The notes beneath the pieces are model-generated. The model was not told where the DNA came from, made no database searches, and saw only the letters and a program-made list of their open reading frames with translations. A stretch of 64,000 nt of DNA from positions 1 through 64,000 of IMG/VR virus record IMGVR_UViG_3300008954_003554. One strand, 5' to 3'. This DNA is from a virus. The first letter of the stretch is position 1, and each line of letters opens with the position of its first letter. Both the position numbers and the translations under genes were made by a program. This document shows, one piece after another, positions 14,983-37,544 of the stretch.

Positions 14983-14985
14983 ACA

Positions 14986-15327: not shown

Positions 15328-15339
15328 AAGGAGACTAAA

Positions 15340-16044: not shown

Positions 16045-16045
16045 A

Positions 16046-16426
16046 ATGAAAATCACACGCAGACAATTAAGACAGATCATACAAGAAGAGCTGGGAAGAC
16101 TTAATGAAGGTCCTAAACCAGAAGGGTACATAAAAACTGTTAATGTCGGAAAAGATGGAAAAACAATAGATGACGTTCGTAATGGCTTAAAAAATCCAGC
16201 CTACGTCGACAGACTATTCATCCACGCGACATCTAAGCGCCCATCAGGACAATTCTTTATTGCTTCGCTAGAGTCGCTGGGCGGCATAGAACATCATCAC
16301 AGCCAGGAAGGAAAGGATGAGCTCAAGAAACTTGCTAAAGAGAAGGGCCTCGCCGGCAAGATCATGCACCTTGACAGTGTTCTTATTGATGGAAAACCAT
16401 CAGTAGTAGTAATTGAGTTATTGTAG
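16046..16426 (+). CDS. Tagged protein of unknown function
   Basis: 126 residues from ATG 16046, selected over an in-frame upstream ATG (16010) because it gives the tag MKITRRQLRQIIQEEL and starts just past the upstream stop. An LNE site precedes GPKPEG. The cargo has alternating strands and a His-rich GIEHHHSQEGKDELKKLAKE segment. Not recognised. Confidence 0.77.
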   Translation: MKITRRQLRQIIQEELGRLNEGPKPEGYIKTVNVGKDGKTIDDVRNGLKNPAYVDRLFIHATSKRPSGQFFIASLESLGGIEHHHSQEGKDELKKLAKEKGLAGKIMHLDSVLIDGKPSVVVIELL

Positions 16427-16434
16427 GATAAAAA

Positions 16435-17391: not shown

Positions 17392-17395
17392 ATAG

Positions 17396-17935: not shown

Positions 17936-17944
17936 GCAAGAAAG

Positions 17945-18103
17945 ATGAATCTTACACCAGCCCAACTAAGAGAGATAGTCATTCTTACTTTAAAAGGCAA
18001 GACTGAAGAGAGAGATCAGTTTATAAGAGAGCTTAGAAAAAGATTTGAACATTCACAAAAATATCTAAATGAGAAAACAAGAAAGAAAAAATATGTAAAA
18101 TAG
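17945..18103 (+). CDS. 52-residue tag-like helical protein
   Basis: ATG 17945 to TAG 18101-18103. It begins MNLTPAQLREIVILTLKG, a divergent tag, followed only by a charged helix (EERDQFIRELRKRFEHSQKYL) and a Lys-rich end. It may be a tag with almost no cargo, or a small helical adaptor. AGCAAGAAAG precedes the start, a weak ribosome site. Confidence 0.55.
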   Translation: MNLTPAQLREIVILTLKGKTEERDQFIRELRKRFEHSQKYLNEKTRKKKYVK

Positions 18104-18110
18104 GATTGCA

Positions 18111-18503
18111 ATGGAACTTATCTCGACACATTTTTGTAAAGCTGCGAACGTTGGATATCATGGAAATCTTTTTGGAGGAACTATGCTCGGATGGCTTGAT
18201 GAAGCCGGAGCGATATTTGCGTGTGAGGCATGTGACACTCCGAGAATGGTGACAAAAAAAATCACTGAGGTTGTATTCAATAAGCCAGTTCGACCAGGAC
18301 AAATTATAAAAATATACGGTGAAGTGGTGGGGGTTGGAAACAGGTCGATTACAGTTAGGCTAGAAGCCAGACGACACAGCGTGTACAATGGCTCTCAGCG
18401 CACTGTCCTGACTACAGATATGACTTTTGTAAGAATTGACGGTGACGGTGAGCCTATTCCTATTAGTGATAAAGTAAAATCTAAATATAGTGATTTATCG
18501 TAA
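18111..18503 (+). CDS. Hotdog-fold acyl-CoA thioesterase (YciA-like)
   Basis: 130 residues. GYHGNLFGGTMLGWLDEAGAIFA contains the N-x-x-x-G...D signature of YciA/ACOT-type hotdog thioesterases. VRPGQIIKIYGEVVGVGNRSITVRLEARR is the conserved second half. These enzymes hydrolyse acyl-CoA to free acid and CoA. No tag, and it is placed within the tagged cluster. A phage-carried thioesterase would act on host lipid metabolism; that is inference. Confidence 0.85.
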   Translation: MELISTHFCKAANVGYHGNLFGGTMLGWLDEAGAIFACEACDTPRMVTKKITEVVFNKPVRPGQIIKIYGEVVGVGNRSITVRLEARRHSVYNGSQRTVLTTDMTFVRIDGDGEPIPISDKVKSKYSDLS

Positions 18504-18512
18504 TATTTATCT
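18504..18512 (+). promoter_or_regulatory. Weak late-promoter-like TATTTATCT
   Basis: TATTTATCT directly past the thioesterase stop, 22 nt before ATG 18526. It differs from the TATTTAATA consensus at the end and has shorter spacing, so it is only a possible site. Confidence 0.3.
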
Positions 18513-18525
18513 ACAGGGACAATTG

Positions 18526-20292: not shown

Positions 20293-20303
20293 GGAGAGAG
20301 TTT

Positions 20304-20723
20304 ATGAAAATTTCCGAGAAAAATCTTAGAAAGCTGGTTTTATTGGAAATCCTAAAAGAACAGTATCAGCCCCGGGACGACGACCCCGAAGAAAGCCCTG
20401 AAAGCCCTGAAGGATCAGAAGAAAATGAATCCTACCAGGTTAATAAAAGAGTTGAGAAGGCAATAAAAAAAGCTTCTACTTCCACCTTTAGGAATAGAAA
20501 ATTTCGATCTCTTCTTAATAAGTTGCAGACCGTTACGGTTCCTCTTTACGGCAACAAGACGATAGATTTTAAGCTAGACCCGAAGCAGCCGACCAGCCTT
20601 CATTTTACTATTAAGAATATTGTAACAAGCCCAAAACTCCAAAATATCAACCTAACAGGAAAGGTAGATGATCTGATGAAACGTGATCCCAAGGTTTCAT
20701 TGAGAATCTCTGGACGATTTTAG
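20304..20723 (+). CDS. Tagged protein with LKEQYQPR motif
   Basis: 139 residues from ATG 20304 (GGGAGAGAG upstream). Tag MKISEKNLRKLVLLEILKE, then QYQPRDDDPEE and an acidic linker with a short SPEGSEE-type repeat. The C-terminal 80 residues are strand-rich (TVTVPLYGNKTIDFKL, VSLRISGRF). Not recognised. Confidence 0.74.
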   Translation: MKISEKNLRKLVLLEILKEQYQPRDDDPEESPESPEGSEENESYQVNKRVEKAIKKASTSTFRNRKFRSLLNKLQTVTVPLYGNKTIDFKLDPKQPTSLHFTIKNIVTSPKLQNINLTGKVDDLMKRDPKVSLRISGRF

Positions 20724-20740
20724 CACAAGGAAAATTTACT

Positions 20741-21319
20741 ATGAAAGTCACACGCAAACAATTAAGAAATCTTGTCAGGAAGACCCTCAAGTCTGATCTG
20801 AGAGAGCAGTATGAACCCAGAGAGCCTAGTCTTCCGAATCCGGAAGATCATGACTTTACAGGTCCGATCGGAGATGGAAATATTCTCAGGAAGTGGATCT
20901 GCATGAGCGGAATCCCTGGGGGTGAGGGAGAGGAACAATGGGGGTGGATGCGAATTCAACCTAACAAGAAAATTAAATTTGGAAATTGGGGTGATCAAAG
21001 TGTAGTCTCGATTTCCCAACTCGAGATAGAATCTAGGGTTGATAAGTCTTTTAACGAGGATGAGATTAGGGTTTATGGATTTAAGAGGGGTCGGAACGGT
21101 AAGCTCTACGTTTCTGGAGAAGTCAACATGGGTCGACTTCTTGGAGGCTGGCAGGGTGTAGAGCCCGGAACCTGGAAAAGGGTTGATGCTCCCGATGCGA
21201 ATTCTGTGATTAGAAGCATACTCACCCAATTATACCGACATGAGGAAGCTTCTGTTGAACTCGAAAGACACGATGTTCCTGTGGTAGGGGATGTCACAAT
21301 AACACTTTCTGTGGCATAA
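20741..21319 (+). CDS. Tagged protein sharing a C-terminal domain with the gene at 16435
   Basis: 192 residues. Tag MKVTRKQLRNLVRKTLKSDLRE, then QYEPREPS. The tag has an insertion, and the LRE site is kept. The final ~60 residues, ending VVGDVTITLSVA, match the end of the 16435 protein. AAGGAAAATT precedes the start. Confidence 0.74.
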   Translation: MKVTRKQLRNLVRKTLKSDLREQYEPREPSLPNPEDHDFTGPIGDGNILRKWICMSGIPGGEGEEQWGWMRIQPNKKIKFGNWGDQSVVSISQLEIESRVDKSFNEDEIRVYGFKRGRNGKLYVSGEVNMGRLLGGWQGVEPGTWKRVDAPDANSVIRSILTQLYRHEEASVELERHDVPVVGDVTITLSVA

Positions 21320-21356
21320 TTTAAAAGAGTCTTCTGATAATAAATGAGCAGCATAA

Positions 21357-21365
21357 TATTTAATA
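21357..21365 (+). promoter_or_regulatory. Candidate late promoter TATTTAATA
   Basis: TATTTAATA at 21357, exactly 40 nt before ATG 21397, followed by AATGATCAG as at 13401. Confidence 0.5.
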
Positions 21366-21396
21366 AATGATCAGTGAATTAGGGAGCTTTTGATTG

Positions 21397-21717
21397 ATGA
21401 AAATATCAAAAAAATATCTTAGAAGACTCATCAAGGAAGAGCTCACACACCTATCAGAGGGAGTCGTACGTCTTAGATTTCTCCACAAACAGAAGATTGA
21501 TGACTATGTGTGGCGGGCAACCTCCGATAGCGGCGGCGGTGGCCAGCATGAAATCACAACACCTGATGGTGAAGAATGGGTGAAGGAGGACAGTGAGCTC
21601 GTAAAGGTTCACCGCAGCGGTGATTATAATCCAGCGGATGACATAGATGAGATCCACGCTGCCATGAAGAGTCACCGTGACACAGGCGAGTTTCCTGAGG
21701 GATGGACTAAACGATGA
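21397..21717 (+). CDS. Tagged small protein
   Basis: 106 residues from ATG 21397. Tag MKISKKYLRRLIKEELTHLSE, LSE before GVVRL. The cargo is a small basic/beta fold (RLRFLHKQKIDDYVWRATSD, GGGGQHEITTPDGEEW). ATGA overlap with the next gene. Confidence 0.75.
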   Translation: MKISKKYLRRLIKEELTHLSEGVVRLRFLHKQKIDDYVWRATSDSGGGGQHEITTPDGEEWVKEDSELVKVHRSGDYNPADDIDEIHAAMKSHRDTGEFPEGWTKR

Positions 21718-22079
21718 AGATAACACGTAGACAATTAAGAAGAATCATACTTGAGGAGAAGCAGAGGTTGATGCTTGAGTCTAGCGCTGGTGAGAAAAGA
21801 CAGTCAGAGATGCGCCAGTTTGCAGAGAGCAGAGGCGGAGCTAGAGTCAGGAGTGAGGGCAACAAGATTAAAGCATCTTCCGAGGCGATTCAGCGACTGG
21901 CAACAGAGCAGACCGGTCTCATGAGGGACACACTCTATAGGATGTCTGAGTTTGTTAGGAAGGTCGGTGAGTCATATGGAAGCATCGGCTTGCTAGATGA
22001 GGGTGGTTCGGTCGGAGACACCCTGCCATCGATCAAAGAGCTGAAAGCCTTAGCGAAGTCAATGAAAAAACTTGAATAG
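21714..22079 (+). CDS. Tagged helical protein
   Basis: 121 residues. Tag MKITRRQLRRIILEEKQRLMLE (an MLE site). The cargo is rich in Arg/Glu/Ser and predicted helical (RDTLYRMSEFVRKVGESYG; ELKALAKSMKKLE). Overlaps the upstream stop by 4 nt. Not recognised. Confidence 0.74.
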   Translation: MKITRRQLRRIILEEKQRLMLESSAGEKRQSEMRQFAESRGGARVRSEGNKIKASSEAIQRLATEQTGLMRDTLYRMSEFVRKVGESYGSIGLLDEGGSVGDTLPSIKELKALAKSMKKLE

Positions 22080-22087
22080 GAAGCATC

Positions 22088-22702
22088 ATGAAAATAACAC
22101 GCAGACAATTAAGACAGATTATTAAAGAAGAGATGAATAGGTCACTTCTGAAAGAAGGCGAAAGCGCACGGATGGCAGCCCGTGCACTGAACCGCTCTCG
22201 GGTAGGTACAGCATACTGGCAAAGTAGTGGCCTAAACTATAGTGGAAATCCTGCCTTTAGAATGATGCCGCCTGCTCACATTGCTCTCGCAGTCGCTGCC
22301 GGGGTTGTGTCTGCTGCTGTAGCTACAGAGGTGATGAGAGCTGCCGGGATGCTTCCGACCGCGTCAGGTGAAGCTCTAACAATATATGATATCGGAAAGA
22401 TAGATCCTTTCTATAGCGCGCCTGACGTTAAAAAGAGTGCTGAATGGCAGATATGTCTCGCAGATGCTCGGACTCACGCAAGGAGTGTTGGGAAAGTTTG
22501 TGTCTGGGTGAAGGGAAACATCGGTGAAGAGAAGGTTTATGTCATACATCCTGATGGAAATCTAACAAGTGGGGACAGAGATCAGAACGTGATGACTGTG
22601 AGTGAGAATGGAAGATTTGCCCGTGACGGCAGGCTTTTCTATGAGAGAAGTTGTTCTATATGTGATGATGCAGCAGAGGTTAGAAGCAGATGTCATCGAT
22701 GA
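22088..22702 (+). CDS. Tagged protein with one membrane helix
   Basis: 204 residues, AGGAAGCATC before the ATG. Tag MKITRRQLRQIIKEEMNRSLLKE (LKE before GESAR). A hydrophobic segment (HIALAVAAGVVSAAVATEVM) around residue 65 is long enough to cross a membrane. The C-terminal domain holds several Cys (WQICLADARTHA, KVCVWVKG, SCSICDDAAEVRSRC), which may form disulfides or bind metal. Function unknown. Confidence 0.74.
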   Translation: MKITRRQLRQIIKEEMNRSLLKEGESARMAARALNRSRVGTAYWQSSGLNYSGNPAFRMMPPAHIALAVAAGVVSAAVATEVMRAAGMLPTASGEALTIYDIGKIDPFYSAPDVKKSAEWQICLADARTHARSVGKVCVWVKGNIGEEKVYVIHPDGNLTSGDRDQNVMTVSENGRFARDGRLFYERSCSICDDAAEVRSRCHR

Positions 22703-22926
22703 AAATCACCCGCAGACAACTAAGACAGATAATCAGGGAGCAAGCGGGGGAGCAATCTAAGATTGAACAAGAGCTTGAGAGGCGAAAATCTGATCAAGTA
22801 CTCACTTCAGTGTCTGATCTTATGGATCAGTTCATTAGGGCTCAGAATGCTCCGGCGCTACTTGGGGTTTTAGAAAGATTGCAGAGCCTGATTGGCCATT
22901 ATTCTGAAGCGGAGATACTACAATGA
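22699..22926 (+). CDS. Tagged short helical protein
   Basis: 75 residues from ATG 22699 (4-nt overlap; an in-frame ATG at 22690 is possible). Tag MKITRRQLRQIIREQAGEQ, then IEQELERRKSDQV encoded by a 34-nt block identical to one in the gene at 17396. The rest is a coiled-coil-like helix. Confidence 0.72.
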   Translation: MKITRRQLRQIIREQAGEQSKIEQELERRKSDQVLTSVSDLMDQFIRAQNAPALLGVLERLQSLIGHYSEAEILQ

Positions 22927-23129
22927 AGATCACGCGAGAACAACTAAGGCGAATGATTTTAGAAAGCTGGGGTGAGGCATCCAGACCCGCAACACCCGAG
23001 GAGGCTGAATATTTTGAAAGGTTGCAGAATATTCAAAGATCAAGACAGCCTGGCCAAACTGTGGAACAAAGAATGGAAAAGCTTGAAGCGAAGGTTGATG
23101 CTATCCTAGATATGATAGGAGAGCTATAG
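22923..23129 (+). CDS. Tagged coiled-coil protein
   Basis: 68 residues. Tag MKITREQLRRMILESWGE; the remainder is a long heptad-like helix (VEQRMEKLEAKVDAILDMIGEL). 4-nt ATGA overlap with the gene before, and 1-nt overlap (TAGTG) with the gene after. It may mediate oligomerisation. Confidence 0.72.
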   Translation: MKITREQLRRMILESWGEASRPATPEEAEYFERLQNIQRSRQPGQTVEQRMEKLEAKVDAILDMIGEL

Positions 23130-23230
23130 TGAAAACAGATTTGGACAAAGCTCTGGAGAGTTTATCACCAGAAGAGCTAGCAGAGTATGAAGAGATCATA
23201 GAGCTCTGGATCACATACGGAGGGGATTAG
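23129..23230 (+). CDS. 33-residue acidic helical peptide
   Basis: GTG 23129 to TAG 23228-23230, starting on the last base of the upstream stop and ending at the base before the next ATG. Content: KALESLSPEELAEYEEIIELW, a single acidic helix. Exact packing between neighbours supports a real gene, and the GGAGGGG for the next gene lies in its tail. Confidence 0.6.
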   Translation: MKTDLDKALESLSPEELAEYEEIIELWITYGGD

Positions 23231-24295
23231 ATGAAAATTACAAGAAGACAACTGAGAAGGCTAGTTGAGGTTGAGGTCAAGCTGACGGATGAGGAGATGA
23301 ACGCTGCAAGAGACGAGTTAATGCAGAAAGGTGGAACTTCAGACCCAGGAGACTTTGTTCAAGCTGTCAGGATGGCATCAGCTGATGATACTGACGAAGA
23401 TCTTTCAGATGAAGAGCTTTTGAAAATAGTCACAGATCAAGTTGATGATATCGCTGTTCATCCAATGGGAGACATCATTGACACCGAAAAACTTAATGAG
23501 GGATCTTGGGTGGGTTCTCGGAGAAAACTACTCCAGATTATTCAAGAAGAGCATGCTCGAATTGTGGAAGGCGACGTCGTCGGAATGTTCCCTCCGGGAC
23601 AGACAGCGATTCTGCAAATTGCAAGGGCACTAGCTTCCCGTGCTGAGGAGATGCTTGATCTCGACGGCGCTGGTGATGATATTGAGGTTCGTGTCGAACC
23701 AAACCTCTTTCTTACTCCTTACATAGATTTTGACGGACATGGCCAAGAGGTTCCCTCTCTTGCAAATCACGTCTATACCAACTATGTATCAGGAAAAGCC
23801 GGAGACCAGGCAGACTCGCTTGATGATATTCTTACGAGAATTAGTATTGACTATTTTGATGAACCCATTGAATACGCACTGGAGGCATTAGGTGATGACA
23901 GGTTCACAATGCCTGACACATATCACCAGGGTGATAAGTCGCAGATGATGAAGACAAAGGAGCTAGCATCTCAACAGGATCCCGAAGAGGTTGAGAAGAT
24001 GGGCATGGACTTTGAGAGATTCTTGCAAGGTATTGATCCAGAGGACCTGAGTGAGCAGCATCAGCCTCGCAACAACAAGCTGAATCAAGTAAATATACTT
24101 TTAGATGATGCTCTCAAACTTGTCGGAACGAACAACAAAGAAGCTTCCAGGAAGGTCCGGTCTGCTTCTAAAATTATGGACGGCGAGGCGGACGAGGGTG
24201 CTGTTGAGCAAGTTTCTCGTCTCGGTGACAAGCAAACAATAGTTGATATGAAGAGAATGGTAAACTCTAAGGGGTTTTCGTTTGCGCCAGACTAA
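23231..24295 (+). CDS. Tagged multi-module protein
   Basis: 354 residues, with TACGGAGGGG before the ATG. Tag MKITRRQLRRLVEVEVKL at the start. A second tag-like helix (SRRKLLQIIQEEHARIVEGD) follows KLNEGSWVG at about residue 95, and a LSEQHQPR motif lies at about residue 280. The three sites KLNE/G, RIVE/G and DLSE/Q could cut it into separate pieces. No enzyme motif found. Acidic throughout. Confidence 0.74.
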   Translation: MKITRRQLRRLVEVEVKLTDEEMNAARDELMQKGGTSDPGDFVQAVRMASADDTDEDLSDEELLKIVTDQVDDIAVHPMGDIIDTEKLNEGSWVGSRRKLLQIIQEEHARIVEGDVVGMFPPGQTAILQIARALASRAEEMLDLDGAGDDIEVRVEPNLFLTPYIDFDGHGQEVPSLANHVYTNYVSGKAGDQADSLDDILTRISIDYFDEPIEYALEALGDDRFTMPDTYHQGDKSQMMKTKELASQQDPEEVEKMGMDFERFLQGIDPEDLSEQHQPRNNKLNQVNILLDDALKLVGTNNKEASRKVRSASKIMDGEADEGAVEQVSRLGDKQTIVDMKRMVNSKGFSFAPD

Positions 24296-24349
24296 GAAGC
24301 TTTTCTGAAATTAAGTAAGAATTATTATGAACTCAATCGGGAGATGTGT

Positions 24350-24355
24350 TATAAT
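24350..24355 (+). promoter_or_regulatory. TATAAT box, leaderless layout
   Basis: TATAAT at 24350-24355, 5 nt before ATG 24361. The expected -35 position (24328) holds TGAACT, a weak match to the TGTAAA form. Transcription would start at about the A of the start codon. Confidence 0.45.
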
Positions 24356-24360
24356 AATTC

Positions 24361-25521
24361 ATGGATTTATTTACAGTTGCTGGCCACGGAACTAATACTC
24401 AGATTATTGAAAGACGACTGACTACATGTCAATATAGGCCCGAAGCTGTCTTCATGTCACCGGGAGTTCAATACGATTTTTGGGCTAAGTTCGATCCTAA
24501 AATTGAACCAGTTGTAGATTCTCCAGAGGGAAAGTTGATTCATGTACCGACATTTATAAATCCCGGACAGCACCACGTGAATTCTGTTTTTGACCTGAGT
24601 GATACACTTTCGCTTAGAGGTTTTAGCAAAGATTTGCATCTTAGGGGTCTTAATTTTGGTCGAAATGGTAGACATTTTCATGCTATCCTATCATGTGCTG
24701 CGCTTAGAGAGTCTACAGGAGACTTGGTCAGGTGGTCAGTGGGAAGAAAAAATATTTTAGACGTGGGAAATGCAGGAGAAACATGGCTTTATCAGGCACT
24801 TAAACTTTCTGGACCTATGTTTGTGGAGAATTTAAACTATTACACCCTTGATATCTGTGATGATGTAAAGTTAGCAAGAAACAGTACATCCCTAGAAGTT
24901 CCCGCTGATAGATGGCATCATTTCGCTCACGATGCTAGAAAGGTTGACGGGATAGACAAAAGACTTCTACCCGAAGAGGGGTTTGATGTCATTCACATTG
25001 CACAGGCTTCATGTGAACTTTTCACGGGTACTGACTATATTCAAACACTTGAAAAACTTTATAACTTACTTGCCCCCGGTGGCACAATAATATTTCCTGC
25101 TAAAAAATTAGAACTAGATACTTCGTGTGACCCCGAGAAGAGCAATGAAACATTATATAAAATGGGTGAAGGAGAGTTTAGAATTGGAGGAAATATTTCA
25201 GTTTTAACAGCTGAAACTGAAGACCTGATTGCTGAAAGAGGAACCATTAGTACTCGGGACTGGATTGCTTATAAGTTTTGGGTGCAATCCAACATACAAT
25301 ATTTCTATCAAAGCAACCGATCAGGAATTGATCTGTTTACGTATTGTAAAAGATATTTTGATGCAAGGGAGCCGCTGAGAATAGACTCGCTCTCGTTTTT
25401 CAATAACGTTAGAATTAGATCAGTTTCTATTCAGACTTCCGACGTTCTGCTGACTCAAAATTATATTCCAACACTCACGAGTCGTGCCACTCTTACGGCG
25501 ACAAAACCTTTCGATAAATAG
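24361..25521 (+). CDS. SAM-dependent methyltransferase-like protein
   Basis: 386 residues. Around residue 130, KNILDVGNAGETWLYQAL resembles methyltransferase motif I (LDVG-x-G). VIHIAQASCELFTG and LYNLLAPGGTIIFPAKKL match the motif IV and post-motif (L.PGG...) region of class I enzymes. Flanking N- and C-terminal domains are not recognised. Substrate unknown. No tag; it follows a -10 box with almost no leader. A PD-(D/E)XK nuclease gene follows, so a modification/nuclease pairing is possible but unproven. Confidence 0.6.
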   Translation: MDLFTVAGHGTNTQIIERRLTTCQYRPEAVFMSPGVQYDFWAKFDPKIEPVVDSPEGKLIHVPTFINPGQHHVNSVFDLSDTLSLRGFSKDLHLRGLNFGRNGRHFHAILSCAALRESTGDLVRWSVGRKNILDVGNAGETWLYQALKLSGPMFVENLNYYTLDICDDVKLARNSTSLEVPADRWHHFAHDARKVDGIDKRLLPEEGFDVIHIAQASCELFTGTDYIQTLEKLYNLLAPGGTIIFPAKKLELDTSCDPEKSNETLYKMGEGEFRIGGNISVLTAETEDLIAERGTISTRDWIAYKFWVQSNIQYFYQSNRSGIDLFTYCKRYFDAREPLRIDSLSFFNNVRIRSVSIQTSDVLLTQNYIPTLTSRATLTATKPFDK

Positions 25522-25546
25522 AAGATCCGACATGCCTATTTAATAT

Positions 25547-25936
25547 GTGGCACGAAAAAGGCGACAACGTAGGCGTAAGAGGGAGCTGTGGAGCAAGAAG
25601 TCAGACTACACATGTCTTGACGGATCGATAGTCTCAATGGATAGTACCTGGGAAGTTGCCTGTGCCAACCGTCTGGATGAACTTGGAATCCGATGGATAA
25701 GAAACCCATCTCTTAAGTTGAAGTACACCACGCGGGGCAGGAGACTCCGGAATTATATCCCAGACTTCTACCTGCCGGACCATGATGTCTACATCGAAGT
25801 CAAAGGGTATTGGACGGATTCGGCAAGACATAAGATGATGAGTGTGCAAGCACTGAATCCGGTAAAAATTATAATTCTCGAGAGCCTCGAAGAGATAGGA
25901 AGATTTGCCCCTGACCATCACGAAGATAAAGAATAA
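25547..25936 (+). CDS. PD-(D/E)XK-fold nuclease-like protein
   Basis: 129 residues from GTG 25547. A very basic start (RKRRQRRRKRELW) precedes STWEVACANRLDELGI, IPDFYLPDHDVYIEVKGYW and a KIIILE strand. Together these supply the E...PD...E-x-K metal-binding set of small PD-(D/E)XK nucleases (VSR/TnsA-like, phage homing or repair types). TATTTAATA lies directly upstream at 25537. Confidence 0.72.
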   Translation: MARKRRQRRRKRELWSKKSDYTCLDGSIVSMDSTWEVACANRLDELGIRWIRNPSLKLKYTTRGRRLRNYIPDFYLPDHDVYIEVKGYWTDSARHKMMSVQALNPVKIIILESLEEIGRFAPDHHEDKE

Positions 25937-25980
25937 AACACATCATTTCATAATAGTTATAATATGGACCGGAGCCGCCA

Positions 25981-26259
25981 ATGAAAATAACACGCAGACA
26001 GCTAAGACAGATTATTAAAGAAGAAACTAGAAAACTATCAGAAGGGTGGGGTATAGATACTGGGATAGCGATTCCGAAACACGGCGTGACAATCGGTGAT
26101 GTCCAGGACGAGGCTATGAGGCTTGATCAAGACCTTTATTTCATTAACGACCGTGGAAAAACATATAAGGTGATGTCAGATGGTAATCTCCAAGGTCTGC
26201 CCGGAGATGAGCTTCCATCAGGTGTTGATGATAGATTAGTATATACAAGGAGATCATAA
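25981..26259 (+). CDS. Tagged small protein
   Basis: 92 residues. Tag MKITRRQLRQIIKEETRKLSE, LSE before GWGIDTG. Cargo is beta-rich (GKTYKVMSDGNLQGLPGDE). A TATAAT-like box at 25959-25964 lies upstream without a good -35. 1-nt overlap (TAATG) with the next gene. Confidence 0.75.
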   Translation: MKITRRQLRQIIKEETRKLSEGWGIDTGIAIPKHGVTIGDVQDEAMRLDQDLYFINDRGKTYKVMSDGNLQGLPGDELPSGVDDRLVYTRRS

Positions 26260-26870
26260 TGAAAATCACGCGCAGACAGCTAAGGCAGATCATTAAGGAA
26301 GCTGGCGGGTATCGTGATTATTCTGATGATGAAGTTGAATATACCTCGCGTGCCGGAACATTATATGACGAGCTCCCTGGCTTAGGCCCGAGAGACGATC
26401 ATCTTGAAAACATAAGTTCGCAAGACATGGCTGACGCAAAAAGACATGCGGGTGATGACCCAAAGGCACAAGCAGATTATCTCGACATCAGTGTTGAAGA
26501 TTGGAATCGAATTCGCCAAGAGACAGATGATTGGTACGAAGAGAGACACATTCTTGATCAGATGGAGATGGTTGATGACAAATTTATTGACTGGTCCAGA
26601 GACTTAGCAAAAGCTTTGAAGTATAGAAGCGTTGAAGATATGCCTGCCGATATGACAAGTGATTCTTACGGAGGACCCTATGATGCTTGGGACAGAGGTG
26701 TAAGTCCTGCAGACTATGCAGCGAGTGCTTATTCTCCAGGGCTAGATAAGACTTCTTCGGGCGGGAGGCACCCGCTCGACGTCGACGGAGACGGAAAGCT
26801 GACAATATCTGAAATGAAGATCACGCGTAGACAGCTAAGAAGAATCATAAGAGAGGCTGCTGAGATATAA
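26259..26870 (+). CDS. Tagged protein with EF-hand and a second tag at its C-terminus
   Basis: 203 residues. Tag MKITRRQLRQIIKEAGG. The cargo is helical and acidic (LDISVEDWNRIRQETDDWYEE). The end reads HPLDVDGDGKLTISE followed by MKITRRQLRRIIREAAEI and stop. This EF-hand/tag joint is the same peptide as at about residue 85 of the 15340 protein, but with many synonymous base changes. The second tag has no cargo, like a fusion whose following gene was lost. Confidence 0.78.
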   Translation: MKITRRQLRQIIKEAGGYRDYSDDEVEYTSRAGTLYDELPGLGPRDDHLENISSQDMADAKRHAGDDPKAQADYLDISVEDWNRIRQETDDWYEERHILDQMEMVDDKFIDWSRDLAKALKYRSVEDMPADMTSDSYGGPYDAWDRGVSPADYAASAYSPGLDKTSSGGRHPLDVDGDGKLTISEMKITRRQLRRIIREAAEI

Positions 26871-26897
26871 ATCGAGCGCCCGGGCACGAGACACGCG

Positions 26898-26925
26898 TGT
26901 AGTCAAGAGCAGACTGTGGTACAAT
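26898..26925 (+). promoter_or_regulatory. Promoter TGTAGT-N16-TACAAT
   Basis: TGTAGT 26898-26903, TACAAT 26920-26925 preceded by TGG, then CCAAGGAGG. Drives the genes from 26952. Confidence 0.82.
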
Positions 26926-26951
26926 AGAAACATCCAAGGAGGATGTAAACT

Positions 26952-27239
26952 ATGTCACTATCAGTTAATCAACAAATGCAAAATGCTAAGCTGCTCACTC
27001 TTGGCGAGCTGCTGGAACTCAATCAATTTATCGTGGAGCAAATTAAGCAAGGGAGAGCAGAACAGGCACGCCAAATGAAACGAATGCTTTCTGTCGGAAG
27101 CAAGGTCTCGTTCGAAAACAATGACAGTAAGGTCGTTCAAGGTGAGGTCATCAAGATCATGAGGAAGTTCGCCCGGGTTAAGATCGGATCGGATACATGG
27201 CGAGTCCCGCTCAATCTTCTGACACTGGAGATGTCGTAA
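26952..27239 (+). CDS. Small protein with helical start and SH3-like C-terminus
   Basis: 95 residues with a strong AAGGAGG. Residues 1-45 are helical (TLGELLELNQFIVEQIKQGR). Residues ~48-95 (VGSKVSFENNDSKVVQGEVIKIMRKFARVKIG) form a KOW/SH3-like barrel. This layout is common in unnamed phage proteins (recalled). Confidence 0.68.
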   Translation: MSLSVNQQMQNAKLLTLGELLELNQFIVEQIKQGRAEQARQMKRMLSVGSKVSFENNDSKVVQGEVIKIMRKFARVKIGSDTWRVPLNLLTLEMS

Positions 27240-27478
27240 TGAATCTAGTAACAGTACTCTTCGTAAACGGGATCGTAAGCTCGGTCAGCGGGCAGTCGGT
27301 AACAGTCCAGATGGATGCGAAACCCGAATGTGATCCCGTCGTCCTGGTGATGCCACTCGCCTCCTTTCCGTGTGACATCGGTGAGGGATCTACTTTTCAT
27401 CTCATGAAACTAGAAGAGGATTCTGAGACGATCGTTGTTTGTGGAAACTTCAACCAGTCAATCAAGGAAAGGAGGTAG
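27239..27478 (+). CDS. DUF3006-like small protein, relative of 3209-3436
   Basis: 79 residues from ATG 27239 (TAATG overlap). VNGIVSSVSGQSVTVQMD and VMPLASFPCDIGEGSTFHL match the pattern of the protein at 3209 (PIAMFPCNLSEGD), but there is no signal peptide here. Function unknown. Confidence 0.6.
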   Translation: MNLVTVLFVNGIVSSVSGQSVTVQMDAKPECDPVVLVMPLASFPCDIGEGSTFHLMKLEEDSETIVVCGNFNQSIKERR

Positions 27479-27480
27479 AC

Positions 27481-27633
27481 ATGGATGATATCGAATATCC
27501 ATTTACTTTGAGTTATACCAAGCCTGATGGTGAGAAGATCAGTGTGGAAATCCACAATGACGGACAAGCCGAGGACGAGTATCACAATATGTGGTGGTTC
27601 TGCGGATATGACGTCAAATTTAGTGTGGACTGA
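27481..27633 (+). CDS. 50-residue hypothetical protein
   Basis: ATG 27481 preceded by AAAGGAGGTAGAC. A small beta-type protein (YPFTLSYTKPDGEKISVEIHND) with DEYHNMWWFCGYDV. Not recognised. 3 nt before the exonuclease gene, so co-transcribed. Confidence 0.62.
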   Translation: MDDIEYPFTLSYTKPDGEKISVEIHNDGQAEDEYHNMWWFCGYDVKFSVD

Positions 27634-27636
27634 TAG

Positions 27637-28458
27637 ATGAAAGTAGTATTATTTGATGCAATGAATCTGATACACAGGTCACGAAATGGTTTTCACAAAG
27701 GTGATCACCCACTAACATATCAGTTTTTTAGATCATTCAAGCCCCTCCTAGAGAAGCTTCAGCCTGACCTGGCTTACTTTGTCTTAGAGGGCAGACCTAA
27801 GAGTCGAACTGAGGCATATACAGACTATAAGTCTAATCGGCCATCACTACCCGATTCGTTTTGGCGGCAGCAAGGAGAGATTCTAAGCATCATGCAAAAT
27901 CTACCTGTCGTCCAGATCAGACATCCTGATCATGAGTGTGATGATGTTATCGCCAATCTTGCGAAGCATCACACAGAGTCAGGGAATAGTGTTGTCATTG
28001 TGTCAGGTGATTCTGACTTCATTCAGGTGTTTGACTCAATGGATCGTGAGCTCGTTGATATTTATCACCCAATTAAAAAGACGTTTGTCGAAAAACCTAA
28101 CTACACCTATCTCGACTGGAAAGCACTCCGGGGAGATGTAAGTGACAACATTCCTGGAATCAAGGGGGTGGGAGATAAGACGGCGACTAAGCTCATCAAT
28201 AATCCTGACCTGTTGAGTGAGACACTATCCAATCCCGAGAAGCGTGAGATATTTGAAAGGAATAAGTCACTCATTGCTTTTCACTGGTTCGAAGATCTAA
28301 GTGATGACTTAAGAAATGAAGGTGCTGAGATCTTCTATCCTGTGCCCTCTATGAAAAATGTCATGGAATCGTTTGATCAGATGGGATTCAAGACCATGCT
28401 GACAGACAAGTACTGGCCGAAGTTTGAAGGTGCTTTTCACTCTCTGCTTACTGACTGA
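27637..28458 (+). CDS. 5'-3' exonuclease / flap endonuclease (T4 RNase H / T5 D15 type)
   Basis: 273 residues. VVLFDAMNLIHRSRNG gives the first catalytic Asp; YFVLEGRPKSRTEAYTDYKSNR, HECDDVIANLAKHH and VIVSGDSDFIQVFD supply the other metal ligands. GDVSDNIPGIKGVGDKTATKLI is the helix-3-turn DNA-binding segment. The family removes RNA primers and flaps from lagging-strand fragments. It is the clearest replication gene in the window. Size is as expected for the phage members. Confidence 0.92.
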   Translation: MKVVLFDAMNLIHRSRNGFHKGDHPLTYQFFRSFKPLLEKLQPDLAYFVLEGRPKSRTEAYTDYKSNRPSLPDSFWRQQGEILSIMQNLPVVQIRHPDHECDDVIANLAKHHTESGNSVVIVSGDSDFIQVFDSMDRELVDIYHPIKKTFVEKPNYTYLDWKALRGDVSDNIPGIKGVGDKTATKLINNPDLLSETLSNPEKREIFERNKSLIAFHWFEDLSDDLRNEGAEIFYPVPSMKNVMESFDQMGFKTMLTDKYWPKFEGAFHSLLTD

Positions 28459-28496
28459 TCCAGCACCCAGCATCTCGTGCGCTACTAATAATAAAA
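28455..28496. repeat. Intergenic repeat A (42 nt)
   Basis: Begins on the exonuclease stop and is nearly repeated at 29195-29236: both read CTGATCCAG-ACCCAGCATCT then GCTACTAATAATAAAA, with about four differences. Confidence 0.75.
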
Positions 28497-28547
28497 TAAT
28501 AGAGTAGCTTAATAGTTATATAGGAGCTGCAAGGGAGAGCACAAGAC

Positions 28548-29198
28548 ATGCGCATTACTCGTAAACAACTGAGAAGAATCGTACAAGAAGAGATCTTGAG
28601 AGAGCAACAGTACCAACCTAGACCACCCAGCCTCGGTCGCGCCGGAGATTCCCGACCCTTAGACCCCTCAGATGTGGAGGCAGGTGATGAGCTTCTTGAC
28701 GTTCAGTTTAATATTCCAAACCGAGGGGGAAATCCCAGGATGTTCACTGCCACTGCTAGCGGCGTCGATGCCCCGGGAGGTTTTGCCTATGTCTATGCAA
28801 AGCCAGTAAAGATACGCAGTGATCATCTCACTAAAAGCTACGACCCAGAAGAAGAGACCGGGGGACTTCGTCGGATAGTGCCAGCTGTAGGAGTGAGCGA
28901 GGACGATATTGAGATTGAAATAACTAGCTTTGAATGTGTTGATCCCGCAGCAGGAACATACAGGATTAGCTGCGATTATGCATATGACGTCACTCTTGCC
29001 GGCCAAGATGCTGCGTCAGGTGATGGTACGACCACCACCACATTGTCCTGGGCTGAGATGCAGGCTTTAGCCACAGCACTTAAGAGGGGTGAGCAGTTTG
29101 GAAAATATGAACCCCCTGCCCCGCACAATCAGCATATAGGCATCAAGATATGCGTAACAGCTGGCACACCTAGATGGATATCCATCCGAGAGACCTGA
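28548..29198 (+). CDS. Tagged protein with LREQQYQPR motif
   Basis: 216 residues. Tag MRITRKQLRRIVQEEILRE, then QQYQPRPPS. The cargo is beta-rich with DVQFNIPNRGGNPRMFTAT, an acidic centre and Cys pairs (FECVD, RISCDYAY). Isolated from other tagged genes, in its own 0.65-kb block flanked by the intergenic repeats A and B. Confidence 0.74.
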   Translation: MRITRKQLRRIVQEEILREQQYQPRPPSLGRAGDSRPLDPSDVEAGDELLDVQFNIPNRGGNPRMFTATASGVDAPGGFAYVYAKPVKIRSDHLTKSYDPEEETGGLRRIVPAVGVSEDDIEIEITSFECVDPAAGTYRISCDYAYDVTLAGQDAASGDGTTTTTLSWAEMQALATALKRGEQFGKYEPPAPHNQHIGIKICVTAGTPRWISIRET

Positions 29199-29388: not shown

Positions 29389-29571
29389 ATGAAAGCCGGT
29401 GATTTGGTGAGAATGAGAGGCACGCTTGAGTGGAATGGTCAGGTTGGGCTAATCACTAAGGTTCCTAGAACTCAGTGGGGCATGTGGGTTGTTATGCTTG
29501 CTTCCGGTGATGACACTTTTGTTGCGACCGGTCGTAAAGAGTGCATGGAGGTAATCAGTGAAAGTCGGTGA
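29389..29571 (+). CDS. MKVGDLV-family gene 1 of the seven-gene array
   Basis: 60 residues. MKAGDLVRMRGTLEWNGQVGLITKV... ends CMEVISESR. ATG with AAGGAGG. The last 14 nt (GTGAAAGTCGGTGA, 29558-29571) are also the start of gene 2. The ESR ending is dictated by the neighbour's start in the other frame. Confidence 0.82.
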   Translation: MKAGDLVRMRGTLEWNGQVGLITKVPRTQWGMWVVMLASGDDTFVATGRKECMEVISESR

Positions 29572-29782
29572 TTTGGTAATCAGGAAGATCCCTGAGCGTG
29601 GCACCAGCCGTAGGGCATCAGCCCTTAGCCAACGCCGGGAGCTGGGCCATGGCCTTATTTTAACGAAGCAAATGGGGGGAAGTAATCCTGTCCACCCATG
29701 TGTTACAGTCTATTATCCGTTGACTGGTGAAATGTATGATATCGCAGAGTCGCTCATGGAGGTAATCAGTGAAAGTCGGTGA
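29558..29782 (+). CDS. MKVGDLV-family gene 2 of the array
   Basis: 74 residues from GTG. MKVGDLVIRKIPERG, GHGLILTK, PCVTVYYPLTGE, MEVISESR. 14-nt overlaps on both sides. GGAGGTAATCA inside the upstream coding region acts as ribosome-binding site for this GTG. Confidence 0.82.
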   Translation: MKVGDLVIRKIPERGTSRRASALSQRRELGHGLILTKQMGGSNPVHPCVTVYYPLTGEMYDIAESLMEVISESR

Positions 29783-29972
29783 TCTGGTCGCACTTAGATT
29801 ATGTCAACAAGCAGGTACGATTGGAATGATTACAATGCTAACCAAGCCATCTCATCTTGCTAGGACTAAGCCTGAGCTCCGACTATACTGGGTTTTGACT
29901 GATTTGGGTAACCAATGCTTCACGGGTAGTCAGTTGATAAGACATGTCTGGATGGAAAATGAAACTCGGTGA
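29769..29972 (+). CDS. MKVGDLV-family gene 3 of the array
   Basis: 67 residues from GTG. MKVGDLVALRLCQQAGTIGMITML then a tail ending WMENETR. The closing overlap still spans 14 nt, although the sequence is ATGAAACTCGGTGA. Confidence 0.78.
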   Translation: MKVGDLVALRLCQQAGTIGMITMLTKPSHLARTKPELRLYWVLTDLGNQCFTGSQLIRHVWMENETR

Positions 29973-30138
29973 TTTGATATATGATTCTCACTTCAAAGAA
30001 CACGGTGTGGTGGTCGAAGCTAAACCCTGCGAGATTGGGCAAGGTGAGTGGTGTGCGATCCTTTATGCAGACGGTGAGCTAGTAGAGGGCATTCGGTCAT
30101 GGGAAGAAACAGTTGAGGTGGTTAATGAAAGTCGGTGA
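29959..30138 (+). CDS. MKVGDLV-family gene 4 of the array
   Basis: 59 residues from ATG 29959 (14-nt overlap). MKLGDLIYDSHFKEHGVVVEA, WCAILYADGELVEG, VEVVNESR. An in-frame ATG at 29944 is possible but breaks the family pattern. Confidence 0.8.
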   Translation: MKLGDLIYDSHFKEHGVVVEAKPCEIGQGEWCAILYADGELVEGIRSWEETVEVVNESR

Positions 30139-30322
30139 TCTCGTCCAGGTAGTGCAATCGGAATCGTGCACACTTCACACACCATTTGAAGGACAAGTAG
30201 GCGTAATCATTAATGTCTGTCTAGCTAAGTCTAAAGAACAGGATAGGTTTGTAGTACTAACAAGGAACTGTACTCTAATATTCGGACCAAGTTACCTCGA
30301 GGTTATACATGAAAGTCGGTGA
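30125..30322 (+). CDS. MKVGDLV-family gene 5 of the array
   Basis: 65 residues from ATG 30125. MKVGDLVQVVQSESC, QVGVIINV, RFVVLTRNCTL, LEVIHESR. 14-nt overlaps with both neighbours. Confidence 0.8.
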   Translation: MKVGDLVQVVQSESCTLHTPFEGQVGVIINVCLAKSKEQDRFVVLTRNCTLIFGPSYLEVIHESR

Positions 30323-30497
30323 TCTGGTAAAGAATCTAAACTCGGAATCGATGATGCATGGCGTTGTTGTGGACTTTGAGTTGCGGAGGGCGGGCGGCGG
30401 ACTTTACTCTGTGAGAATGCCTGTGGTGTTGTGGGCAGATAAAAGGTGCAGTCCAATTATGCCAGATATGGTGGAGAAAGCAAATGAAAGTCGGTGA
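30309..30497 (+). CDS. MKVGDLV-family gene 6 of the array
   Basis: 62 residues from ATG. MKVGDLVKNLNSESMMHGVVVDFELRR, PVVLWADKR, VEKANESR. Overlap of 14 nt each side. Confidence 0.8.
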   Translation: MKVGDLVKNLNSESMMHGVVVDFELRRAGGGLYSVRMPVVLWADKRCSPIMPDMVEKANESR

Positions 30498-30705
30498 TCT
30501 AGTTTTGTTTCCATGCGACTGGGAGCGCTATCAAAAAAGAATTGGAGTTTTGGTAGAGATTAGAGATAATCCAGCCGATTTAAATAATATTTTTATGCAG
30601 AGGCAAGGGCACTCGCCGCGAAAAATTGCTGACATTTTGTATAAAGGAAAAATGACTGGGTGCTGGGTGTCACATTTGGAAGAGGTGGCCAGTGAAAGTC
30701 GGTGA
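30484..30705 (+). CDS. MKVGDLV-family gene 7, end of the array
   Basis: 73 residues from ATG. MKVGDLVLFPCDWERYQKRIGVLVEI, then LEEVASESR. It still ends in the 14-nt overlap sequence although no full gene follows, showing that a downstream member was lost. Confidence 0.8.
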   Translation: MKVGDLVLFPCDWERYQKRIGVLVEIRDNPADLNNIFMQRQGHSPRKIADILYKGKMTGCWVSHLEEVASESR

Positions 30706-30709: not shown

Positions 30710-30768
30710 TGACTGATCGAGCGCCCAGCATCGAGCGCCCAGCGAATCGTAGCAGCGAGCCCGGGACA

Positions 30769-30880
30769 AGACAGTCTGACATCGCTGTCGACACACTGTC
30801 ATCGTCTGTGACAAATGGTCATACCTAAAGACAACATGTCACTAGCTGTGACAACATGTCAATACTGTGACACCGTGTCA
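30769..30880. repeat. 20-bp-periodic TGACA-N3-TGTCA palindrome array (operator/iteron candidate)
   Basis: Five copies of a 13-bp palindrome start at 30789 (CGACA-CAC-TGTCA), 30809 (TGACA-AAT-GGTCA), 30829 (AGACA-ACA-TGTCA), 30849 (TGACA-ACA-TGTCA) and 30868 (TGACA-CCG-TGTCA). A degenerate sixth at 30769 is AGACA-GTC-TGACA. The spacing is 20, 20, 20, 20, 19 bp, about two helical turns, so all sites face the same side. It fills the centre of the 330-bp gene-free stretch 30710-31039. The rest of that stretch holds repeat fragments, a promoter and nothing else I can see. Confidence 0.75.
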
Positions 30881-30976
30881 TTTCCCATCTAGCACCCAGG
30901 ATAATGCATTTCATCTAGCGCCCAATAGTTACAGACTTAAACAGGGGGGACACCCCGACTCGCCCTAACTTTCTCG

Positions 30977-31004
30977 TGTACATCGGGTCAGCATGTGGTA
31001 TGAT
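30977..31004 (+). promoter_or_regulatory. Promoter TGTACA-N16-TATGAT
   Basis: TGTACA 30977-30982, TATGAT 30999-31004 after TGG. About 100 bp downstream of the palindrome array, so it may be the regulated promoter. Drives the small membrane genes from 31040. Confidence 0.78.
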
Positions 31005-31039
31005 ATAGATATGGAGGTGCCGGTAGTTGGGAGGCAGAG

Positions 31040-31195
31040 GTGTCGAGGGATCGGATCAGGGTCAGAGTCGACCTGTTCAGGCGGATGGTCAAGGAGCAAG
31101 AGAGAATTCGGAGGGTGGCGCTGACGACGCAGGTCATCAGTCTGCTCGCGCTTGCGATCTCTGTCGGGGCGATGATCGTTGCGTACACGGGCTAA
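31040..31195 (+). CDS. 51-residue membrane protein with basic N-terminus
   Basis: GTG 31040 (GGGAGGCAGAG upstream) to TAA 31195. A charged helix (SRDRIRVRVDLFRRMVKEQERIRR) leads into one membrane helix (VISLLALAISVGAMIVAY). First of three tiny membrane genes rich in GTCGAC hexamers. Confidence 0.65.
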   Translation: MSRDRIRVRVDLFRRMVKEQERIRRVALTTQVISLLALAISVGAMIVAYTG

Positions 31196-31496
31196 GGAGA
31201 CGATGTGTTCGGTAGACGGGAGGTGGACACTGTGCTCCTGCGAGTACGAGAGTCAGAGGCCAGGTCGACCCAAAAGATCAAGGATCTCCAGGAAAGGGTC
31301 GACGCCGTTGAGGATGCCTGGGTCGACACCCTGGGGGAGATTCATCGTTGGCGCACCTGGATGACGCTTAGTGTCTTCTCTCTGGCTGTCACCTCTCTCG
31401 TCCTGTCAGGCATCTACCTCGGGGGTGTGCTTTTCTAGGGGGTCGACCCGAGGAGAAAGGGGGTCGACTCTGCAGGGCAGTGGAGGTGGGGTCGAC
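31067..31496. repeat. Cluster of seven GTCGAC palindromes
   Basis: GTCGAC occurs at 31067 and then six more times up to 31491, several within GGGGTCGACCC-like contexts (31439-31496). It is scarce elsewhere in the window. Confidence 0.6.
31205..31438 (+). CDS. 77-residue coiled-coil plus membrane-helix protein
   Basis: GTG 31205 with AAGGAGACGAT. A long charged helix (VLLRVRESEARSTQKIKDLQERVDAVED) is followed by one C-terminal membrane helix (WMTLSVFSLAVTSLVLSGIYL). Size and order are like small spanin- or holin-associated proteins, but no specific match. Confidence 0.68.
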   Translation: MFGRREVDTVLLRVRESEARSTQKIKDLQERVDAVEDAWVDTLGEIHRWRTWMTLSVFSLAVTSLVLSGIYLGGVLF

Positions 31497-32203: not shown

Positions 32204-33259
32204 ATGGATATCAAGACCTTCGCATCCACCGTTCGCGCCCTTCCGGCCGACGTCTCCGTTCTTATTCGAGGCCCACACGGGATCGGTAAGTCCCACCTCG
32301 CCGAGAAAGCGGCTGAGGACATAGGGCTGCCCCTCATCGACCGGCGTCTCTCGCAGATGTCCGAAGGTGACCTGGTCGGGTTGCCGGAACTGGTGGACGG
32401 TGTCACCCGCTTCTGCCCTCCGGACTGGTACGCTCGGGCTTGCCGCGAACCGGTGGTTCTCCTCCTGGACGAAATCAACCGGGCGACCCCGGAGCTCCAG
32501 CAGGGAGCCTTCCAGATCGTTCTGGCCCGGGAGCTTAACGGCCACAAGCTGCACCCCGACACCCGCGTCATCGCGGCAGTCAATGCCTCGGCAGAATACC
32601 AGGTGAACGAGATGGATCCGGCTCTGCTGGACCGATTCTGGGTTGTGGACCTGGACCCCACCACCGATGATTGGATCGAGTGGGCATCTGGCCCTGGAGA
32701 TATTGACTCGGTCATCGTGGACTTCATTCGCCACAATCCGGCTCACCTTCGATTCAAGGGACAGGCGGAGCCGGATAAGATCTACCCCTCTCCTCGGTCC
32801 TACGACCGGTTGAACCACACCTTGCAGCACGCCTCGATGGCACCTTCCGAGGTGGCTGGAGACGTCAAGTCGAACGTTGGATTCTACGCCATCTCTCACG
32901 GCTTCCTCGGTACCGAGGCTGCTATCGCCTTCCGGGACTTCGTTGATAACTACGAACTCCAGGTATCTCCGGAGGACGTGCTGAATGACTACAAGAAGAA
33001 CAAGAAGTCTCTTGAGGCGCTCACCAATGATCAGGGGAATGGTCTGATCGCCAAGGTGGTTGACCACTGCAAGCAGAACAGCTGGACGGTGGATCAGTGC
33101 TCCAACCTCTCCAAGTGGGCTAAGACCCTGCCTGGTGAGATGATGGTGAGTCTCTGGAACGGTGTGATGGAGACCAAGGAGGTCAAGAACATCACCAAGC
33201 TCCACAAGTTCCTGGGTCAGTCTGTTGTTGAAGCAGTTCAGCGGTCACGCAGTCTGTAG
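32204..33259 (+). CDS. MoxR-type AAA+ ATPase
   Basis: 351 residues. Walker A GPHGIGKSHLAEK at about residue 26, Walker B VLLLDEINRA near residue 85, sensor-1 VIAAVNASAEY and an arginine-finger-type MDPALLDRFWVVDL follow the MoxR/dynein-related AAA+ order. MoxR ATPases act as chaperones that load or remodel metal-containing partners, usually with a VWA protein encoded next door, as here. GC-rich codon use differs from the AT-rich right end. Confidence 0.9.
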   Translation: MDIKTFASTVRALPADVSVLIRGPHGIGKSHLAEKAAEDIGLPLIDRRLSQMSEGDLVGLPELVDGVTRFCPPDWYARACREPVVLLLDEINRATPELQQGAFQIVLARELNGHKLHPDTRVIAAVNASAEYQVNEMDPALLDRFWVVDLDPTTDDWIEWASGPGDIDSVIVDFIRHNPAHLRFKGQAEPDKIYPSPRSYDRLNHTLQHASMAPSEVAGDVKSNVGFYAISHGFLGTEAAIAFRDFVDNYELQVSPEDVLNDYKKNKKSLEALTNDQGNGLIAKVVDHCKQNSWTVDQCSNLSKWAKTLPGEMMVSLWNGVMETKEVKNITKLHKFLGQSVVEAVQRSRSL

Positions 33260-36460: not shown

Positions 36461-36611
36461 CAAAGAGATTATTCGTGAAGCATACTTCGCACTGGCCGGC
36501 TATCGAAGCCCGACACTAACAAGACAGCAGCGGGAGAATGAACTACAGAGATGTTATACACTTCTTGCGGACGCTCTGTATAGACGGGATGAGGAAGATG
36601 AAAGTAGGTGA
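36453..36611 (+). CDS. 52-residue helical protein ending in the ESR overlap
   Basis: ATG 36453 to TGA 36611. MTDKEIIREAYFALAGYR...YRRDEEDESR is helical and unlike the MKVGDLV family. Yet it ends in the same ESR-stop because its last 14 nt (ATGAAAGTAGGTGA, 36598-36611) are the start of the next MKVGDLV gene. It shows that unrelated genes can be linked by the same joint. Confidence 0.68.
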   Translation: MTDKEIIREAYFALAGYRSPTLTRQQRENELQRCYTLLADALYRRDEEDESR

Positions 36612-36765
36612 CCTGGTAAAGTATAAAGGTTCAGTCGGAATTGTTCTTGGGCCTTGCACAAAGCGCTGGGCTAAGCCCGCTGATGTTTGGGTACTTTGGC
36701 CTCATAAGCACAGGCCCATGATCGAGAGCAGCGACTTTATGGAGTTAGTAAATGCAAGTCGGTGA
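36598..36765 (+). CDS. MKVGDLV-family gene
   Basis: 55 residues from ATG 36598. MKVGDLVKYKGSVGIVLG, DVWVLWPHKHRP, MELVNASR. 14-nt overlaps at both ends. An in-frame ATG at 36538 is ignored as it lies inside the previous gene. Confidence 0.8.
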   Translation: MKVGDLVKYKGSVGIVLGPCTKRWAKPADVWVLWPHKHRPMIESSDFMELVNASR

Positions 36766-36943
36766 CCTGGTATCATTGAAGATGAAGAAGACACAACCCC
36801 CTCAGGTACCTTGCCATGGCATCGTACTCAATCTATGGCGGAATCATAAGGGACGGCTTGTTGAAGTAGAGGTGATGTGGTCAGAAGGTAATGTTAGAAG
36901 GTTCCGTGCTGATCTCTTCGAGGTGATCAATGGAAGTAGGTGA
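36752..36943 (+). CDS. MKVGDLV-family gene
   Basis: 63 residues. MQVGDLVSLKMKKTQ, CHGIVLNLW, VEVMWSEGNVRRF, EVINGSR. 14-nt overlaps both sides (ATGCAAGTCGGTGA and ATGGAAGTAGGTGA). Confidence 0.8.
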   Translation: MQVGDLVSLKMKKTQPPQVPCHGIVLNLWRNHKGRLVEVEVMWSEGNVRRFRADLFEVINGSR

Positions 36944-37136: not shown

Positions 37137-37544
37137 ATGTCAGTTCAGTTAGCAAATATTCAACACGACGGCGGCACTCACGATGTGTCTGTGGAAACAG
37201 AGGGTGATCAGTGTGTCATCAAGTTTGGCGGCAGCTTCACGCTCCGCGTGGATGAGGCAAATCTAAATAAGCTGCGTGAGATGATTCACATCGCGGCTCG
37301 TGACTTGACCATTGAGCGACGTGATACTGCCGGTGCTCGGGAGTGGTCGGAGTCGGGGTTAGACGACGTGTTTGACTTTGATGAGAGCGATGAGATCTCG
37401 GGTGAAGACCTGAAGGCGGCTGATGAGATCTGGCAATCGAGCGTTGAAGCTGACATGATCCAGCGTGGGATCGACGCGCGCGAGATGATGAAGGGAACAG
37501 CTAGCGCTGGAGACTGGAACCCGAACGATCCATCCAACTGGTAG
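37137..37544 (+). CDS. Hypothetical 135-residue acidic protein
   Basis: Strong AAGGAGGAATATTC. The N-terminal half is strand-rich (DVSVETEGDQCVIKFGGSFTLRVDE) then a helix (NLNKLREMIHIAARDL). The C-terminal half is acidic and disordered-like (DDVFDFDESDEISGED). No family recognised. Confidence 0.72.
   Translation: MSVQLANIQHDGGTHDVSVETEGDQCVIKFGGSFTLRVDEANLNKLREMIHIAARDLTIERRDTAGAREWSESGLDDVFDFDESDEISGEDLKAADEIWQSSVEADMIQRGIDAREMMKGTASAGDWNPNDPSNW

Follow-up and report, generated by a model that had tools for sequence, protein, structure and literature searches.

In the replication origin of phage lambda, the iterons are interrupted palindromes repeated about 20 bp apart inside the initiator gene O, and spaced palindromes combined with direct repeats are typical of both partition and packaging sites. 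Operators of TetR-family regulators normally comprise two or three copies next to the gene of the regulator; in bacterial chromosomes, the same 13-bp palindrome as described below occurs as two copies at 20 bp start to start, mostly in intergenic DNA. The oriE of phage T4 contains evenly spaced 12-nt direct repeats and an early promoter, and related phages have similar repeats at the corresponding position (PMC3016281).

Here, we analyzed a window of 64,000 nucleotides, i.e. bases 1–64000 of an 83,333-bp virus record, with bases 63001–83000 joined for wider searches. A non-coding control locus at 30716–31004 heads a GC-rich early block, and an array of six palindromes related to TGACA-N3-TGTCA (P sites) is one component of it. 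The array has the layout of a TetR-type operator (13-bp palindromes, pairs at ~20 bp); however, it consists of six degenerate copies with a flanking second repeat, and the 83-kb record has no TetR gene. The interrupted palindromes, repeated at about 20 bp, also recall a lambda-type origin, whereas the array in the window lies between genes and no O-like protein was found among those scanned. The locus shares with T4 oriE the clustered repeats, their synteny in relatives, and an adjoining early promoter and small early gene (PMC3016281). In contrast to the direct repeats of T4, those of the window are palindromes plus 11–14-nt direct repeats.

Organization of the locus

The locus is located in the longest gap without genes in the record, which extends from 30706 to about 31026–31039 as defined by mechanical ORF calls. 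On one side are the MKVGDLV genes and on the other is the GC-rich block, and the GC content climbs from about 0.45 to 0.57 in passing from the former into the latter. Both the gap and this location had been described correctly in the sequence-only reading. The features of the locus and its surroundings are as follows.

30484..30705, + strand, last MKVGDLV (KOW-like) gene ahead of the locus (ORF list)
30716..30743, + strand, two tandem D2 repeats, ATCGAGCGCCCAGC twice, at 30716 and 30730
30769..30781, no strand assigned, P site 1, AGACAGTCTGACA, two mismatches (motif scan)
30789..30801, no strand assigned, P site 2, CGACACACTGTCA, one mismatch (motif scan)
30809..30821, no strand assigned, P site 3, TGACAAATGGTCA, one mismatch (motif scan)
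30829..30841, no strand assigned, P site 4, AGACAACATGTCA, one mismatch (motif scan)
30849..30861, no strand assigned, P site 5, TGACAACATGTCA, exact (motif scan)
30868..30880, no strand assigned, P site 6, TGACACCGTGTCA, exact (motif scan)
30887..30900, + strand, D2 repeat 3, ATCTAGCACCCAGG (repeat search)
30913..30926, + strand, D2 repeat 4, ATCTAGCGCCCAAT (repeat search)
30931..30962, + strand, diverged ACTTAG box, ACAGACTTA, 13 bases, CCCCGACTCG (comparison with L005)
30977..31004, + strand, lead promoter of the early block, TGTACA-N16-TATGAT (form shared by L103, L096/L100 and L004; TGTACA..TAGAAT in L005)
31040..31195, + strand, first small membrane-protein ORF past the locus, 51 aa (no family match)
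31205..31438, + strand, second small membrane/coiled-coil ORF, 77 aa (no family match)
32204..33259, + strand, MoxR-like ATPase in the block downstream, query for relatives (family search)

Downstream of the locus, the two small membrane-protein ORFs are followed by KOW-like small genes and the MoxR-like ATPase. Based on this gene content and on the promoters, we infer that the block from about 31040 consists of early genes. The hexamer GTCGAC occurs seven times within 430 bp at its beginning (31067–31496) and 21 times in the whole window, against 9.6 expected. The MKVGDLV genes (29389–30705 and 36538–36943) overlap in such a manner that the end of one gene, ...ESR and stop, is the start region of the next in another frame. 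Many genes at 13632–29198 and 47453–53216 start with MKITRRQLRxIIxEE and have ~44 bp of near-identical 5′ DNA in common. Genes for DUF444, SpoVR and PrkA, a trio familiar in bacterial stress operons, adjoin one another on this virus record from 60633 to the end of the window and on to record position 65129 (PrkA, L001:198–2129). An Rfam scan returned a single tRNA and nothing else. In the phage collection searched, the window had no DNA match among cultured phages, and the MoxR-like ATPase gave only matches below 60% identity.

The palindromic array and its companion repeats

The sequence-only reading had reported six TGACA-N3-TGTCA palindromes starting at 30769, 30789, 30809, 30829, 30849, and 30868. 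All six sites are present at these positions, with spacings of 20, 20, 20, 20, and 19 bp, but only two of them match the word exactly. The left-hand GACA is invariant across the six. No exact copy of the 13-mer occurs in the rest of the 83-kb record, where one-mismatch copies are scattered without forming arrays; the many equally spaced copies in coding regions that would have refuted the earlier reading are thus absent. The array is non-random: a chain of six sites (up to two mismatches, steps of 19–21 bp) compares with a maximum of two in 100 order-3 Markov sequences, the pattern having been picked post hoc after inspection of the window. A motif-free test for periodic inverted repeats found a chain of four in the window, a length that was also reached in 2 of 30 simulations. 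Because this test is weaker, the strength of the case comes from the relatives rather than from the window alone.

The proposal that all sites lie on one face of the helix fails at 10.5 bp per turn. Neighboring sites are displaced by ~34 degrees and the first and last sites by about half a turn, and the argument for cooperativity built on a common face is thus numerically untenable. Adjacent sites stay roughly in phase, but integral-turn spacing is not maintained along the whole array. An RNA-structure reading was rejected, as the z score of the fold was only −1.7 and there were no compensating changes. Half-sites in DNA are favored over RNA stems because GACA is retained in all site variants and compensating changes are absent. 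A literature search for the literal palindrome motif returned no paper.

The D2 repeats, direct repeats of ATCKAGCRCCC overlooked in the sequence-only reading, flank the array with two copies before it (30716 and 30730) and two after it (30887 and 30913). D2 is also present in the relatives L044, L045, L003, L092, L093, L096, and L103. Its identity as a −35 element was ruled out by its variable distance to promoters. It was also rejected as a general intergenic element, since the dense array is confined to this locus within the window; single degenerate copies trail genes at 26871, 28458, and 29198. Beyond the last D2 copy is the diverged ACTTAG box, which in L005 appears at the matching place as one block, ACAGACTTAG-CCCCGACTCG.

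Conservation in related phages

Relatives, all of which are metagenomic contigs, were sought without the palindrome, using the MoxR-like ATPase (as a single sequence and as an alignment), the upstream gene at 25547–25936, and D2 alone. The ATPase search yielded the same virus (L002, 100% over 17 kb) and 16 further loci. Among these, L044 and L045 have four D2 copies at 18-bp spacing directly ahead of the membrane gene and the ATPase, and L003 has three to four copies in the same position; none of the three contains a palindrome array. The search with the upstream gene yielded 57 loci, 25 of them close, including L103, the closest relative beyond the virus itself. L103 has exact P sites at 16336 and 16366, one-mismatch sites at 16386 and 16417, and D2 copies at 16076, 16238, and 16287. 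This locus is flanked on one side by MKITRRQLR genes and on the other by a homologue of the early gene at 37137–37544 of the window.

The D2-only search identified G020 (98,044 bp), in which ten D2 copies surround and interleave the P sites. All five exact P sites of this record fall within 205 bp (96074–96278). Its neighbors are shared with the window, namely the 25547 gene and MKITRRQLR genes before the locus and homologues of the 39–46 kb genes after it. Thus, three distinct phages combine P sites and D2 at this position, two of which came from searches blind to P, and the exact P sites of L103 and G020 are absent elsewhere in those stretches. A functional cis-acting site is supported because the locus is conserved in relatives found without the motif, and this part of the functional proposal in the sequence-only reading stands.

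Several relatives carry D2 but no P sites, so the palindromes are dispensable within the group. D2 without exact P sites was observed in G021 and in G010, which has nine copies together with three GTGTCA words at 11 bp. These three words, about 11 bp apart, lie at L092:2900–2935, after the ACTTAG box of G010 and before its promoter. D2 is absent from L004 and L005, in which other repeats, AGTTACTCG and ACTTTTCCTCG, precede the same box and promoter. Because these two swap the repeats yet keep the box and promoter, the latter constitute the conserved core, and the repeats turn over. The 19.9-kb contig IMGVR_UViG_3300025141_001037 (L003/L107) has D2 arrays at both ends (47–95 and 19734–19843 in the gene direction). 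Joining the ends would restore the gene order of the window, and the contig may be a circle or carry two arrays; therefore, the locus may be present more than once per genome.

The lead promoter

The sequence-only reading had placed the array ~100 bp before a promoter, and there are indeed 96 bases between the last P site and the −35 element, which starts at 30977. The form TGTA(A/C)A-N16-TA(T/A/C)NAT occurs 12 times on the + strand of the window and not at all on the − strand, compared with 0–2 occurrences in simulated sequence. In relaxed form it spans 1631–52103 on the + strand, and it is also found in the relatives L003–L006, L092, and L101. Most copies are TGTAAA..TATAAT, usually with GG ahead of the −10 element, and the ordinary promoters of the block are TGTAAA-N16-GGTATAAT.

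The promoters behind the repeat arrays have TGTACA, combined with TATGAT in the window and G020, TAAGAT in L103 and L004, and TAGAAT in L005. In the D2-only members G010 and G021, the promoter retains TGTAAA. The array promoter therefore has a special form in most members, as would be expected of a separately regulated promoter. The array, its companion elements, their conservation at the same place, and their link to this unusual promoter form were all observed directly. Many similar promoters in the genome have no array. From the last P site to the −35 element there are 96 bases in the window, 62 in L103, and 3 in G020, a variation that speaks against an activator of fixed geometry.

The palindrome in other genomes and the search for a binding protein

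Two P sites at 20-bp spacing were found in 19 viral stretches and at 19-bp spacing in 12, whereas a control palindrome with identical base composition and layout was found in no viral contig at 20 bp. Of 35 bacterial loci where the P palindrome occurs twice at 20 bp, 25 have a TetR-like ORF within 300 bp, and the TetR of one of these loci (L058) was confirmed by Pfam. This proximity suggests that dimeric regulators probably read the P word elsewhere.

Two podovirus-like contigs, L028 and L038, carry five and eight exact sites ~100 bp before a sigma-70-type promoter, and the arrays precede KVGDL/HTH genes. The array stretch is 84–87% conserved, versus about 66% in genes. Multiple copies of the same palindrome ahead of a promoter are shared with the window; however, these phages are unrelated to it, the spacings range from 14 to 34 bp, the promoter is TTGACA-N17-TATACT (L028), and D2 is absent. 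Some unrelated phages (L013, L017, and L023) have P pairs no more than about 2 kb from terminase-like genes, as annotated by eye. On a Verrucomicrobiota MAG contig (L084:326–1147, − strand), TGACATTTTGTCA is repeated at about 22 bp inside an HTH_36 ORF, as in lambda-type iterons.

The TetR domain (PF00440) is absent from the 83-kb record, and our own TetR profile gave no match in the window, L001, L100, L103, L028, or L038. Pfam/PHROGs scans of proteins from the 83-kb record, covering most of the small genes, recognized no DNA-binding regulator. This record is part of a larger genome, and a P-binding regulator may be encoded by the host.

Possible functions of the locus

The recurrence of such sites at this position in relatives makes it very probable that the locus is a genuine switch, or a replication start, for early genes. 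Its best interpretation, to which we give slightly less than an even chance, is a cooperative operator array through which the lead early promoter is controlled, and the linkage to this promoter favors it. The six palindromes would be binding sites of a dimeric, helix-turn-helix-type protein of phage or host origin, which would assemble on adjacent sites about two helical turns apart. Together, the P sites, D2, the ACTTAG box, and TGTACA-N16-TATGAT would form the control region of the block from about 31040, and occupancy of the array would set the output of the lead promoter. Dimeric binding, cooperativity, and the regulatory effect with its sign are the presumed properties of such an array.

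The sequence-only reading had also offered an origin and a partition site. As an origin, the P and D2 repeats would be iterons for an initiator, and the early promoter would provide a primer transcript or open the duplex, as proposed for T4 oriE; this is the main competing explanation, though we judge it rather unlikely. Multi-copy repeats in a non-coding gap, with a promoter and small genes adjoining, do form a cluster of the iteron type, and the replacement of the repeat sequence among lineages at one syntenic place (AGTTACTCG/ACTTTTCCTCG in L004 and L005, D2 alone, or D2 with P) is as expected of fast-evolving iterons. The repeated TGACA-TTT-TGTCA within the HTH_36 ORF of L084 likewise recalls the lambda iterons inside O. 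However, no initiator gene was recognized beside the array, and Rep/O/DnaA-like families were unmatched among the scanned proteins of this incomplete record, most of which have no match. The gap contains no DnaA box, the window has no clear AT-rich unwinding stretch, and the D2 arrays at both ends of the L003 contig suggest that the locus may not be single-copy. The GC-skew check suggested for an origin showed no sign change at 30.7 kb; T4 origins also occur outside skew regions (PMC3016281). In T4 itself, the iterons have no established link to origin activity (PMC3016281).

A role in partition (as a centromere) or in packaging recognition, with a ParB/ParR/TubR-like or small-terminase protein on the repeats, would account for the coexistence of spaced palindromes and direct repeats, and the P pairs near terminase-like genes in L013, L017, and L023 fit the packaging variant. 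Nevertheless, ParA, ParB, ParM, and TubZ families, and with them a par operon of the ParAB, ParMR, or TubZR type, are absent among the Pfam-scanned proteins of the 83-kb record, and no terminase was recognized near the locus; we consider this function highly improbable. We place equally little credence in the repeats being leftovers of slippage or recombination with no binding protein. Their copy number and spacing are highly variable and the sites of the window are degenerate, which would fit this view, but L103 and G020 have exact P sites at this same locus and none elsewhere in either stretch, and the control palindrome is missing from viral contigs, in which the P layout occurs 19 times.

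Among the phages of this group, the palindrome array could belong to a wider arrangement. The box and the TGTACA-N16-TANNAT promoter may form one conserved control or origin locus, in front of which the repeat cassette (D2, D2 with TGACA palindromes, or AGTTACTCG) is swapped among lineages, each with its own reader protein, giving lineage-specific early-gene or replication specificity. We regard this extension as unlikely. The tandem TGACA-N3-TGTCA word, found mainly by TetR-type genes in bacterial chromosomes, recurs across several unrelated phages, and the locus described here is a conserved, testable cis-acting site in large uncultured phages, for which the searched phage collection contains no close cultured relative. 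If the proposed arrangement is true, the exchange of repeat families before a conserved promoter would show how control or replication circuits are kept apart among the phages of this group.
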